A model generated the notes under the pieces. The model was not told the origin of the DNA. It searched no databases and saw nothing but the letters and a program-made list of their open reading frames with translations. DNA of 50,394 bases from an uncultured Planctomycetaceae bacterium. Lineage in GTDB: Bacteria > Planctomycetota > Planctomycetia > Gemmatales > Gemmataceae. Made by a program: the position numbers and the translations under genes. Below, piece after piece: positions 13,517 to 20,481 of the stretch. The stretch lies in assembly GCA_937888715.1 (NCBI GenBank), contig CALARU010000198.1, positions 1 through 50,394 on the forward strand. Direction: 5' to 3'. Numbering within the stretch: the stretch's first letter is position 1; each line of letters starts with the position of its first letter.

Positions 13517-16063
13517 TTAATCATTCCAGATGAGAATTTCGGAGACGCCGCTGCGGGCTTTACCTGCGTGAGTGAAAACAACCCTAACCTTGCTAGCTTT
13601 CACGGGGGTAAAGGTAATTTGGTTAAACTGTCCGCCTATCGGTTTTTCAGGAAGCTTTTTGGAAGAGAGCACTTCTTTCCATTCTGAACCATTCCAGAAT
13701 TGAACTTCGTAATTAGTGGGGGGTTGGACACCGCCACGATCATCATAGATCGCAAGTTCGATTTTATTGAAAGACTTATCGGCGCCAAAATCGACCTCAA
13801 GCCAGTCGGAAGAGTTTGGGGATTCGTAACTAGTCCAGCGGTTGGTGGGGGATGGGAGGAAATTGGTTTTGCCATCGATTGCAGAGGCAGGTTTGCCGCC
13901 AAAGCGGTCGGCATATGAAGCAGAAGCTTTAGGGAAGGGAAGGTTGCCTGGGTTAAAAGCAATATTGCCTGGCGGGTTGATTGGTTGCGTGATTGGAAGG
14001 AGAGAGTCGCCCCAGATTTCAATTTCGGAGAGCCCTGCCTTGGCGTTTACTGGGTGATGAAGCGTGAGTCGAATTTTGGAAAGTTCCATTTCGGGGAAAG
14101 TAATGGTATTGGCTTTTCTGCCCACGGGTTTACCTGTGGAAAGAGTTTGGTTCGGGATGGGTAGCCAAGAGTTATTGGCCCAATATTCCAGGGTGAGTTG
14201 AGAAGGTGGTGTAACATTTTTGCCATCATCGAGAAGATAAAGTTTAACGGAATGTACTTTGCGTTTGCTGCCCAGATCGATGGAGACCCAGTCGGTTGGG
14301 TTGGGTGAACCTTCGCAGGTCCAGCGGTTGGGCGGGGAAATATGGTACCAGTAATTTCCATCGATAAGTTTTGAAATAGGGGTTTTGGGATTCACAAAAG
14401 AAGAGTTTAATCTGGGGTAATAATCGCCATCGTTATTGACTGCATAATTGACCTGGGCAAGATTAGATTTGATAGCGTTTTTTTCGAGCAATGGGAGTTT
14501 AGCAGAAAGCGGGACAAGATCTGTGCTGCTAGCGATTTCCTTGCCATTGGCAAACAGCCTGAGGCCCTTGCCTTTGTTATAGCGACTCCCATCCTTATCC
14601 CAAATAATGCTAATAAGATGATCTTTATAGGGTACATCAGAGAGGGCGAAGTAATGCCAAGATGTGGGGGCCAGAGGTTTGACTTCGAGGGTGTTGTCAT
14701 CGCGTGGGATGATACCGATCAAGCCGGTGATTAGAAGATCGTTGAAGGAGGAATGAAAATAGTGTTCGCTATGGTTATAGCCATCATGCCCTTCGAAGGA
14801 ACCTGTGTCAGGATTGCAGGCCTCGGCGAGGTATGGGAGGCCATTTTTTCGATGGGTTTTGGAAAAGGTTTTGAAGAGTTCAAAGTAATCAGAGGAGTTG
14901 ACGATAGTTTGGGGATAGTTTTGCAGGAGGTTTGCCATGGCTTTGAGGGTTTGGCTAGTTGCGTAGGGCCAAGATTGTCCGCTCCACCAGCAGCAAGATT
15001 TTTTGAGAAGGAACATGGGATCATTTCGTTCGACGGTGCTGGGGCCGAAAGGCGCTTTAAACCCTTCTGAATCAAGTAGTTTTTTCCATGCTACTTCGTA
15101 ACCTTTGTTGGCATCGGGCAGATTGAATTGCCAGGGGATATAGCCGATGAGTTCTCTGCCATATTCGCTTCCTGCATATTTTCCTGATTGGTAGGTGAGT
15201 GTAAGGGCGTTGGTTTTAAAACCATCGGCTTCTTCCTCGCGTTGGGAAAGAGGGAAGAAAAATTTTCGTTTAGGGTCCCAAAGTTGTTTTTGCAGATTAT
15301 CCTTGATGCCTTCTGCTTTGGTGCGAAAAAGGGCGGAGGTGTTTTTATCGTTTGCGAGTTCTGCAATTTTGGCGATGGCGATTGCATCAGCGTACATATA
15401 GGAATTGATGGTGGGCCTGAATGCTGGAGCCCCTCGTAGGATATCTTTTGATTGCCTGCTGTTGATGTTGAATTCCATGCCATCATCGTGGCCATTTTGC
15501 CAGAAGAGTCCGATTTGGGGGGAGAAGAATCGTTTTTCCCAGCCTTCGTGATTAGTTTTCAGGCTGGAAAGAAGGTCGTTAATGAAGGCAAGGTTTGGGT
15601 GGATTTGGTGAGTGGCCCAGACGGAATCAGCAAGCCAGGTGCTGTAGTTTCTGGGTTGAGCGCCCGGGGTTTTAAGCCAGTAGCGGCAATAATCCTGGGA
15701 ATATCGGTTATTGCGGAGCCAGCGGGCTTCATAAAGTTGATGTCCTGCGGGGCAAGAGATTGCGCCGTAGGTGCCCGACCAAAAAGGGCGGTCGATGAAT
15801 TCGGTGAAGGAGTAGCCTGAGTTTGGAGAACCGTAGGTAAGGTGTTTAGTCAGGAGTTCCCAGCGATAATAGTAGGTGGTTTGAATTTCAGAATCGGGGC
15901 ATTCGAAGAAAGGGATGTTGGATTTGTACCAGTCCCAATCTTTGTTGTCCCAGAAGGTTTCTTTTTCGAGTAGCTCTTGTTTGGGAAGCAAAGAGTTTTG
16001 TGCCAAGGCTGGTGAAACGAAGGCAAGGATAAAAGCGATTGCGAAAGGGAAAAGGTTATTCAT
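13517..16063 (-). CDS. Secreted MGH1/GH63-like glycoside hydrolase with two discoidin domains
   Basis: This 848-aa protein has a signal peptide (residues 1-22, ending A-L-A-Q). Residues about 60-500 form an (alpha/alpha)6 glycosidase with W-L-A-D-S-V-W, G-H-D-D-G-M-E-F, G-P-S-T-V-E-R-N-D-P and C-C-W-W-S-G-Q-S-W-P-Y, as in mannosylglycerate hydrolase / GH63-type enzymes; D and E in those motifs are the likely acids. Two F5/8 type C (discoidin) carbohydrate-binding domains occupy about 560-695 and 715-848, each with an N-R-W-T ... D-W core. It probably cleaves an alpha-linked sugar from a polysaccharide outside the cytoplasm. It stands alone on the minus strand, convergent with the RNase H-like gene. 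Confidence 0.87.
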   Translation of the reverse strand: MNNLFPFAIAFILAFVSPALAQNSLLPKQELLEKETFWDNKDWDWYKSNIPFFECPDSEIQTTYYYRWELLTKHLTYGSPNSGYSFTEFIDRPFWSGTYGAISCPAGHQLYEARWLRNNRYSQDYCRYWLKTPGAQPRNYSTWLADSVWATHQIHPNLAFINDLLSSLKTNHEGWEKRFFSPQIGLFWQNGHDDGMEFNINSRQSKDILRGAPAFRPTINSYMYADAIAIAKIAELANDKNTSALFRTKAEGIKDNLQKQLWDPKRKFFFPLSQREEEADGFKTNALTLTYQSGKYAGSEYGRELIGYIPWQFNLPDANKGYEVAWKKLLDSEGFKAPFGPSTVERNDPMFLLKKSCCWWSGQSWPYATSQTLKAMANLLQNYPQTIVNSSDYFELFKTFSKTHRKNGLPYLAEACNPDTGSFEGHDGYNHSEHYFHSSFNDLLITGLIGIIPRDDNTLEVKPLAPTSWHYFALSDVPYKDHLISIIWDKDGSRYNKGKGLRLFANGKEIASSTDLVPLSAKLPLLEKNAIKSNLAQVNYAVNNDGDYYPRLNSSFVNPKTPISKLIDGNYWYHISPPNRWTCEGSPNPTDWVSIDLGSKRKVHSVKLYLLDDGKNVTPPSQLTLEYWANNSWLPIPNQTLSTGKPVGRKANTITFPEMELSKIRLTLHHPVNAKAGLSEIEIWGDSLLPITQPINPPGNIAFNPGNLPFPKASASYADRFGGKPASAIDGKTNFLPSPTNRWTSYESPNSSDWLEVDFGADKSFNKIELAIYDDRGGVQPPTNYEVQFWNGSEWKEVLSSKKLPEKPIGGQFNQITFTPVKASKVRVVFTHAGKARSGVSEILIWND

Positions 16064-17593: not shown

Positions 17594-17785
17594 TTACTTC
17601 AACATTGGTCGGAAACCCGCAGATTTAAAATGTGCATCCTTGGTAAGTGCATCGGAAATTTTTAATTGTTTCATTACTTGGAAACTTAAGCAATCAGTGA
17701 ACGACCAATCTTGATCTGCATGTTTAAGAAAGAAGGCTTGGGTTGAAAAAAAACGATCTGAATCAGTCCATTCGATCCTGCATGC
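17594..17785 (-). pseudogene. Truncated VapC-type PIN toxin (C-terminal half only)
   Basis: The minus-strand frame ending at TAA 17594-17596 reads W-S-F-T-D-C-L-S-F-Q-V-M, D-A-L-T-K-D-A-H-F and A-G-F-R-P-M-L, the classic C-terminal half of a VapC PIN nuclease, including the W-S-x-T-D acidic motif. It opens only about 63 codons before the stop, and the N-terminal half with the first two catalytic acids is missing. Only 11 nt separate it from the antitoxin stop at 17797, so the front half was deleted rather than frameshifted. The toxin must be inactive. Confidence 0.85.
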
Positions 17786-17796
17786 TTATGATTGTT

Positions 17797-18042
17797 CTAG
17801 AGTGGTGAGAAATTTTTGCAATAAATGATGCCATCCATTTCCGCATTGCTTAGGGATGCACCTTTTCCCAAGCCACTAAGCAGAAAAAACGGGTCATTTT
17901 GATTCTGTGTTTCCTGTATTATTGGTTCAATCCGGGCGACAGGAATCCCTCTGCGGGTTAAAATCAGTGATTGCCCGCTTTGAACCTGCTTGATAATTTT
18001 TTTAGTATTAAGCCGAAGTTCCAGCATGGATATCTTTTTCAT
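17797..18042 (-). CDS. Phd/YefM-type antitoxin, orphaned
   Basis: This 81-aa protein has the family's shape: an N-terminal DNA-binding part (K-K-I-S-M-L-E-L-R ... Q-S-G-Q-S-L-I-L-T-R-R-G-I-P-V-A-R-I) and an acidic, flexible C-terminus. AAAGG precedes the ATG. It stands directly upstream of the truncated VapC, so it was the antitoxin of that pair and now has no intact partner here. It may still repress its own promoter or neutralise a related toxin elsewhere. Confidence 0.85.
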   Translation of the reverse strand: MKKISMLELRLNTKKIIKQVQSGQSLILTRRGIPVARIEPIIQETQNQNDPFFLLSGLGKGASLSNAEMDGIIYCKNFSPL

Positions 18043-18149
18043 GATTTACCTTTAAATAATTAACTTCAACTTAAATATTATCAGGTAAGAGTAAGGGTAA
18101 GGGTTGAAATTGGAAAGATTGGTTTTGCGGATGGGAGAAAATGCCATGC

Positions 18150-18185
18150 CGTCCTATTTACGAAGGCGGAAATCTAGAGCGGCGG
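18150..18185 (+). repeat. 36-bp direct repeat, left copy
   Basis: It matches 18967-19002 with one mismatch (T/C at the tenth base). It contains the core CGAAGGCGGAAATCTAGAGC. The two copies flank the antitoxin/VapC pair at 18211-18831. Confidence 0.85.
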
Positions 18186-18210
18186 TAAGTCAAGAAGTCG
18201 CCGTTCGAAA

Positions 18211-18598
18211 TTACCAAATGCGTTTGATCGGGTAAGCATCCAACTGCGGATCAATGCTTACCAGTGAAATCTCTTCCACCATTGCCTGAGAAACCATTAA
18301 TCGGTCGAAGGGGTCCCCATGATGCAAGGGCAGCGTCGTCAGCATTTCCGTGTGCCTTGGCTCGATGGGAAGTACCTTGAAACCATTGCTGTCAACCCCA
18401 TGCGTGATGAGAGTCAAGTAGGGCACAAATAGCCGGATACTTGCCGAGTTTGACTTTGATGGCGATCTCCCAATAGCTCGCCGGGCTAACTAAGATTTCA
18501 TTGGATGGGTCCGCGATAAGCACCTTTGCATCAGCGCTGAGTTGCGAATCATTGGTAATGAACCACAAGAATGCATGCGTGTCGAGGAGTAACCTCAT
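18211..18598 (-). pseudogene. Frameshifted VapC-type PIN toxin
   Basis: The first frame (18598 down to about 18440) gives M-R-L-L-L-D-T-H-A-F-L-W-F with the first catalytic Asp, then V-S-P-A-S-Y-W-E-I-A-I-K with the Glu. The second frame continues from about 18440 to 18211 with V-L-P-I-E-P-R-H, H-H-G-D-P-F-D-R-L-M-V-S-Q-A and L-D-A-Y-P-I-K-R. Joined they make a full-length VapC of about 128 aa; the two frames differ by one nucleotide near 18430-18445 (around G-K-Y-P). All four acidic motifs survive, so this is a recent lesion or a sequencing error. Confidence 0.85.
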
Positions 18599-18831
18599 TT
18601 CATGTACTCCTCAAAATCTTTTAGGTGTTCATCGTCTTCGATGAGGAGCGTAATCATGCCTTTACAATTTCCGGGCACCCGGGGCAGGCGCTGTGGGGCG
18701 GGAGGCGGAACGAGAAGTTTCGCCACGGGTTGTTGGTTCCGGGTCAAGATGACTTCATCCCCAGGAGTCAGGCTGTCGAGGATTTCTGGCAGCGTCAGTT
18801 TCAAGTCTTCCACGGCCATCGTAGTTTGCAT
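18595..18831 (-). CDS. Phd/YefM-type antitoxin of the frameshifted VapC
   Basis: This 78-aa protein reads V-E-D-L-K-L-T-L-P-E-I-L-D-S-L ... V-I-L-T-R-N-Q-Q-P-V-A-K-L, the DNA-binding half of the family, followed by an acidic C-terminus (I-E-D-D-E-H-L-K-D-F-E-E) that would bind the toxin. It overlaps the toxin start by 4 nt (18595-18598), the usual antitoxin-first arrangement. Two 60-nt lines of this region counted by hand hold 38 and 36 G+C, richer than much of the flanking sequence, which fits acquisition from elsewhere. Confidence 0.87.
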   Translation of the reverse strand: MQTTMAVEDLKLTLPEILDSLTPGDEVILTRNQQPVAKLLVPPPAPQRLPRVPGNCKGMITLLIEDDEHLKDFEEYMK

Positions 18832-18966
18832 GATTCTCTCTTTTTGAGCACGAAAAATAGTTCTTTAAGTTTTATTCCTATTTTTTTCGTGGTCAATCTT
18901 CATCCTTTGTACCACACACAAGTTTGAATTCCGCAAGGATGTCTGCAAAACTTGGCGAACGATTTT

Positions 18967-19002
18967 CGTCCTATTCACGAAGGCGGAAATCTAGAGCGGC
19001 GG
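18967..19002 (+). repeat. 36-bp direct repeat, right copy
   Basis: One mismatch to 18150-18185. The copies are 817 bp apart, and the DNA between them contains the antitoxin/VapC pair and little else. Confidence 0.85.
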
Positions 19003-19003
19003 G

Positions 19004-19069
19004 AAAAGAAGAAGCATAGCCACGGAACAACACGGAAAAAGAAGAAGCATAGCCACGGAACAACACGGA
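19004..19069 (+). repeat. 33-bp tandem duplication
   Basis: Two identical 33-bp units (19004-19036 and 19037-19069) begin right after the 36-bp repeat. The unit contains GAAGAAGCATAGCCACGGAA. A purine-rich C-A-C-G-G-A-A-type repeat like this is, from memory, common in intergenic DNA of planctomycetes and relatives. A frame through it (18952-19227) encodes K-K-K-H-S-H-G-T-T-R twice and is not a credible gene. Confidence 0.85.
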
Positions 19070-19103
19070 AGAAAATCCTAGTGGTTCTTCTTCCGTGTTG
19101 TTC
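19058..19103. terminator. 16-bp perfect inverted repeat after the tandem duplication
   Basis: Arms 19058-19073 and 19088-19103 pair perfectly with a 14-nt loop. No clear T-run follows on the plus strand, so it may be a terminator or the folded end of the intergenic repeat. The stretch 18848-19257 otherwise holds only the repeats listed here. Confidence 0.5.
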
Positions 19104-19257
19104 TCTGAAAAGAATAAACAATTTTTGGTTTTCTCGTACTCTGTCGATGGTATTTGTTAGAATCTTGCTAATCGGAAATTTGATATTCACCAAAAGGTAT
19201 GGACTAATTTCGATCCTGAACGAATAGGGCATGGGACTGAAAAGGAAGCCAAACATC

Positions 19258-19863: not shown

Positions 19864-20481
19864 ATGATGGCGCCAACCTTTGCAATCTTGGAATGGTTTC
19901 CACCCGTGTTAAACATCCTGATTTGGTTAGTCAGTGTGTTTTTGATCCTTTTGATTCTGATTCAAAAGGGAAAAGGTGGTGGTTTAGCAGGAGCCTTCGG
20001 CGGTCCGGGGGGTCAAAGTGCATTCGGTTCAAAAACCGCAGATGCCTTCACAAAAATCACGCTTTATGTTGCTGGAATATGGGTTGCGCTGATTGTTGTT
20101 ATGATTTGGCTTGTTCAGCCTAAACCCGTAGTATCCAGCCCGACCGATATATCACAAATTAGTAATGAAGGAATGCCTGCGGAAGGTGCCCCTGTGGATC
20201 CTACTCCTGTGGATCCTACCCCAAAGGCTGAACCCGAATCCAAAGATACTCCTAAACCTGAATCCAAGGACGATAAAAAAGACCCAGTCAAGGATGCTCC
20301 TAAGGTAGAGCCAAAAGGCGCGGCCAAGGACGACAAAAAGGACCCAGTCAAGGATGCACCCAAGGTAGAGCCAAAGGGCGCTGCCAAGGACGACAAAAAA
20401 GATCCAGTCAAGGATGCACCCAAGGTAGAGCCAAAGGGCGCTGCCAAGGACGATAAAAAGGCTGAAACTAAAAAGAACTAA
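19864..20481 (+). CDS. secG: Preprotein translocase subunit SecG with a long charged tail
   Basis: Residues 1-80 are SecG: membrane helix 1 (about 12-33), the conserved cytosolic loop [15 protein letters not shown], and helix 2 (about 62-80). SecG joins SecYE in the inner-membrane export channel. Ordinary SecG is about 75-110 aa; here a hydrophilic tail extends it to 205 aa, with three exact 20-residue repeats ([16 protein letters not shown] ...) made of near-identical 60-bp DNA units. The tail is Lys/Asp/Pro rich and surely disordered. The gene heads a run yicC - gmk - rpoZ on the same strand. Confidence 0.92.
20269..20448 (+). repeat. Three 60-bp tandem repeats in the secG tail
   Basis: Units 20269-20328, 20329-20388 and 20389-20448 encode the same 20 residues and differ only at a few third positions; a fourth partial unit starts at 20449. 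Slippage during replication could change the copy number without breaking the frame. Confidence 0.9.

Follow-up and report, generated by a model that had tools for sequence, protein, structure and literature searches.

Genes and repeats at the locus

The window, the whole stretch of 50,394 nucleotides that was analyzed, comes from an uncultured Planctomycetaceae bacterium, whose genome (G000; 4.56 Mb in 414 contigs) was compared with those of congeners (G001-G006). It contains a small VapBC-type toxin-antitoxin pair with a 36-bp direct repeat on each side, and a second, older pair of the Phd/PIN type adjoins it on the left. Coordinates of these features are given in Table 1.

Table 1. Features of the repeat-bounded module and its surroundings, in window coordinates
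Feature	Position	Strand	Remarks
PIN toxin remnant of the older pair	17597..17830	-	lacks about 173 bp; G001 and G002 have an open frame of 145 aa
Phd/YefM antitoxin gene of the older pair, flanking the insertion	17797..18042	-	PF02604; present in G001-G003
Segment missing from the orthologous locus of G001, G002 and G003	18128..19111	.	approximate bounds; insertion plus later repeat cluster
Left direct repeat, 36 bp	18150..18185	+	similarity as far as 18197; 2 copies genome-wide
VapC toxin, C-terminal part, other frame	18211..18426	-	PF01850, 1.9e-04, just below the curated cut-off; a single open frame in homologues
VapC toxin, N-terminal part (PIN), ahead of the frameshift	18392..18598	-	PF01850, 3e-06
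VapB-like antitoxin, 78 aa, intact	18595..18831	-	96% identical in G005; weak VapB match
Right direct repeat, 36 bp	18967..19002	+	similarity as far as 19014; orthologue in G005 diverged at 6/36 positions
Dispersed CACGGAACAACACGGAA-type repeats with inverted arm	19003..19103	.	similar repeats at about 30 genomic places; lacking in G005 and at the empty sites

The two repeats agree at 35 of 36 positions, the sole mismatch (T/C) falling at the tenth base, and in this respect a first-pass annotation of the same DNA had described them correctly, coordinates included. The 817 bp given there as their distance apart holds as the spacing from start to start, the gap itself being 781 bp. At the 90% level the similarity reaches 48 nt, and 100 shuffles of the window yielded no comparable repeat pair. 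Scattered genomic copies of the 36-mer, which by the earlier account would have made the flanking a coincidence, are absent: even a relaxed pattern with up to 3 mismatches returned only the two window copies from the G000 genome. A search of 98 relatives found no copy of the 36-mer, its exact cores had no match in the genome collection or the viral collection, and searches of plasmids, viral contigs and the genome collection with the cassette and repeat gave no match. Across 95 genomes of the family, a degenerate pattern that allows for the variant found in G005 matched at this locus alone, and only in G000 and G005.

Membership of the 36-mer in the class of dispersed CACGG repeats was considered and rejected, as these sit immediately to its right. 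The dispersed repeats there occupy the place of the native right flank and are probably a later arrival. Many of the approximately 30 CACGGAACAACACGGAA-type repeats in the genome are no more than a few hundred bases away from a contig end, and therefore probably break the assembly. Elsewhere in the window (20264-20461), three tandem 60-bp units encode the lysine-rich tail of a SecG-like protein.

The DNA enclosed by the repeats has a GC content of ~51%, compared with ~40% in the adjoining intergenic DNA. The earlier description of an enclosed antitoxin/VapC pair is accurate for the antitoxin, which is intact, and has to be amended for the toxin, which is split into two frames by a frameshift located between 18392 and 18426; VapC homologues consist of one open frame of about 130-140 aa. 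A sequencing error at this position is conceivable because G000 is very probably a metagenome-assembled genome, and the truncated toxin in G005 suggests that the decay of VapC is real. The antitoxin scores 19.3 bits against NCBIfam TA_VapB, for which the cut-off is 60, and its homologues lean to Phd/YefM. Both adjacent toxin-antitoxin pairs in the window have lost the toxin and retained the antitoxin frame, VapC through its frameshift and the neighbouring PIN toxin through the loss of about 173 bp. No transposase, integrase or other recombinase frame is encoded between the repeats, and PADLOC gave no hit.

The orthologous locus in congeners

The yicC gene to the right of the module served as the marker of the orthologous locus in all six congeners. 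In three of these species, G001, G002 and G003, the left flank (up to 18127) adjoins the right flank (from approximately 19112 onwards), with neither VapBC nor the 36-mer between them. As the pair is absent from the orthologous locus of three congeneric species, it represents, together with both repeats, an insertion of about 0.98 kb, which supports the reading of the locus as a mobile cassette. As the empty sites hold no 36-mer, the repeats came with the cassette; they are a host target sequence in none of the available relatives. The annotation had proposed that related strains be searched for an empty site with a single copy of the repeat, and such a search did find empty sites, each with zero copies. 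Its suggestion of an attachment-site duplication is consequently not supported, and neither is recombination that leaves one copy behind as the origin of the empty sites.

A duplication of the target or attachment site, in which the 36-mer would be host sequence duplicated on integration of the VapBC pair, would give the same architecture as is seen at those other toxin-antitoxin sites of the family whose repeats consist of host sequence (see below). The three empty orthologous sites without the 36-mer nevertheless make this origin improbable at the window locus, and candidates for a diverged second target duplication outside the repeats remained at shuffle level, with 220 of 500 shuffles equally good. 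Two further element types were rejected, namely a site-specific integrated element (no integrase in the element and no att copy at the empty site) and insertion at a tRNA attachment site (the sole tRNA of the window is 22 kb distant).

A fourth species, G005, retains the module in a decayed state, with 93% identity over 18505-19013. The left side of the module has been lost there, the gene at window position 13713 being joined by its end to the interior of vapC, and with this side deleted the original two-repeat state is not proven. The fusion junction, from the end of that gene to mid-vapC, falls at positions 712-713 of locus L113 (G005:C118) and reflects a deletion or rearrangement. The remaining two congeners, G004 and G006, contain neither the module nor the neighbouring antitoxin region. 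In a tree of the adjoining region G005 grouped with G001, G002 and G006, with G000 outside. The presence of the module in G000 and G005, and its absence from G001 and G002 that group with G005, therefore requires that the module was either lost without leaving a scar or exchanged across lineages; the 50 bp beside the insertion favour neither of the two.

The left and right copies in G000 differ at 1 of 36 positions, whereas the right repeats of G000 and G005 differ at 6 of 36, although the rest of the module is ~93% identical between these two genomes; the left copy may accordingly have a more recent origin or have undergone conversion. This would be expected if only the right repeat were native to the cassette and the left one had arisen later by local duplication or gene conversion, in which case the repeats would have had no role in integration; the similarity of the right repeat to G005 also extends further left than the left copy does. 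However, the left repeat lies at the left boundary of the insertion, an improbable position for a random local copy, and its tail, judged by eye, is nearer to the right tail of G005 than the present right tail is, which argues that the left repeat was not copied from the present right repeat. A late origin of the left copy is thus rather unlikely, if far from implausible.

VapBC pairs are common integron cassettes, and the repeats delimit exactly one module, as might an integron-type or IS-type cassette moved by a recombinase that recognises the 36-mer. Upon inspection, however, the 48-nt repeat has no attC core (GTTRRRY / RYYYAAC), and the terminal inverted repeats of an insertion sequence or transposon are lacking. 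The absence of a recombinase frame between the repeats, the genome-wide total of two 36-mer copies and the unrelated repeat sequences at other modules likewise speak against such a recombinase, and this origin is very improbable.

Direct repeats around toxin-antitoxin modules in relatives

VapB homologues were present in 42 of the 99 relatives. DNA totalling 595 kb yielded 80 VapB/VapC modules, and direct repeats spaced 500-1500 bp were sought throughout it. Removal of duplicates, collapse of an orthologous group (the orthologues of one site in G000, G003, G005 and G006 counting as one) and exclusion of repeat-rich loci (L082, L101 and L266) from the strict count left 61 independent VapBC loci. 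Seven of these 61, the window included, are exactly enclosed by a direct repeat pair; when modules were placed at random within these loci, a mean of 0.38 and a maximum of 3 were enclosed (5000 permutations). An enclosing repeat pair was also found at 4 of 30 ParE/RelE loci, in every case around the toxin. None of 80 yicC loci (875 kb) was enclosed, a comparison whose control is a core gene, often from other phyla, rather than matched accessory genes, and this is the main weakness of the claim of an excess. The bounding repeats at toxin-antitoxin modules are 36-200 bp long. This excess at the level of the class supports the general idea of toxin-antitoxin modules as cassettes bounded by direct repeats, and it is a more interesting result than the window cassette itself.

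The repeats vary in sequence between sites and often consist of duplicated host sequence. Several correspond to gene 3' ends: hsdS in its 3' part (L252), the terminal 144 bp of a ResIII-type helicase gene with its stop codon (L214), the 3' end of the phosphoglucomutase gene pgm (L322), what seems to be another gene 3' end (L299), and the 3' end of a gene for a secreted-looking protein upstream of a TRCF-type helicase gene (L229, L239, L241, L244 and L245). At three other loci (L251, L230 and L319) the repeat corresponds to the 5' region of the gene located downstream. The copies at L319 (1300-1386 and 1924-2007) overlap the start of the antitoxin, and the module may therefore have gained a promoter from its host.

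In G000 the site beside the TRCF-type helicase gene is split between the end of contig C285 (L245) and the start of contig C179 (L244). The two contigs overlap by a common 55-nt end that lies inside the repeat, and they carry one VapBC copy each, with ~800 identical bases. The shared end and the VapBC on each contig imply the order repeat-VapBC-repeat-VapBC-repeat, and this second VapBC of G000 has apparently been duplicated in tandem over a repeat of the host gene 3' end. In G001, contig C160 also carries this host gene, with one repeat copy that leads into the right flank, an arrangement that would fit an allele which is unoccupied or has undergone excision. Contig C372 of the same genome carries VapC and a repeat, the occupied form, so that a mixture of strains or a longer duplication is also possible.

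Proposed explanation and relation to known systems

We propose, with a probability of roughly 0.6, that a decaying VapBC cassette already bounded by direct repeats entered an intergenic site beside an older Phd/PIN pair, as one case of a recurrent toxin-antitoxin architecture. The cassette would have arrived in an ancestral lineage from which two species of a single freshwater planctomycete genus descend, or would have been exchanged between them, and the unit carrying its direct repeats would have integrated next to the older pair. At most other toxin-antitoxin sites the repeats are duplicated host sequence, taken from the upstream gene (3' end) or the downstream gene (5' region), and ordinary homologous recombination across them could then delete the module or amplify it in tandem. 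The window cassette shares this architecture, but its repeats have no counterpart at the empty target. For the class as a whole we suggest, tentatively and with some doubt, that type II toxin-antitoxin modules of several families in planctomycetes may propagate as bare units, inserting with long duplicated stretches of host sequence and using no transposase or integrase of their own, and that these duplications may then permit deletion and tandem amplification, as has been proposed for restriction-modification genes.

Insertion with long target duplication was described for restriction-modification genes of Helicobacter pylori by Nobusato, Uchiyama, Ohashi and Kobayashi in 2000, as cited in PMC3031569, PMC1643837 and PMC2654758 (reference 52), and the forms that result can, according to PMC3031569, amplify by unequal crossing-over. 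Within the open-licence literature the phrase stands beside toxin-antitoxin in only five papers, and passages in two of these link it to restriction-modification genes. The planctomycete loci resemble these insertions in that a small self-sustaining module is flanked by direct repeats of variable length, and at the other toxin-antitoxin loci also in that the repeat is a host gene end and tandem amplification is indicated. At the locus in the window, the module is present in G000 and the orthologous site is empty in relatives (G001-G003). The present cases differ from the reported ones in that they concern type II toxin-antitoxin pairs in planctomycetes, and the empty site of the window cassette is without the repeat.

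The entry of small toxin-antitoxin pairs into chromosomes is poorly explained because most are without mobility genes. An excess of exactly enclosing direct repeats, often duplicated host gene ends, offers a testable route for such entry and would connect them with a mechanism that until now has been described for restriction-modification genes. A route through long duplications would account for both the patchy distribution and the tandem copies of toxin-antitoxin pairs, and cassettes bounded by repeats hint at how small selfish modules move, multiply and become lost.

The window pair has the features of known VapBC modules (PIN toxin, PF01850), namely the order of antitoxin then PIN toxin, overlapping ends, and homologues across the family and order, and departs from them in its toxin, which is frameshifted in G000 and truncated in G005. 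It shares with the toxin-antitoxin cassettes of superintegrons a VapBC-size unit delimited by repeats, and differs from these in being a single cassette without attC core or integrase, with repeat sequences specific to each site. The ccdO157-type chromosomal islets of E. coli, as presented in PMC2654758, involve other toxin-antitoxin families and another host, and resemble the window locus as lone toxin-antitoxin pairs that form a genomic islet and decay within a species.
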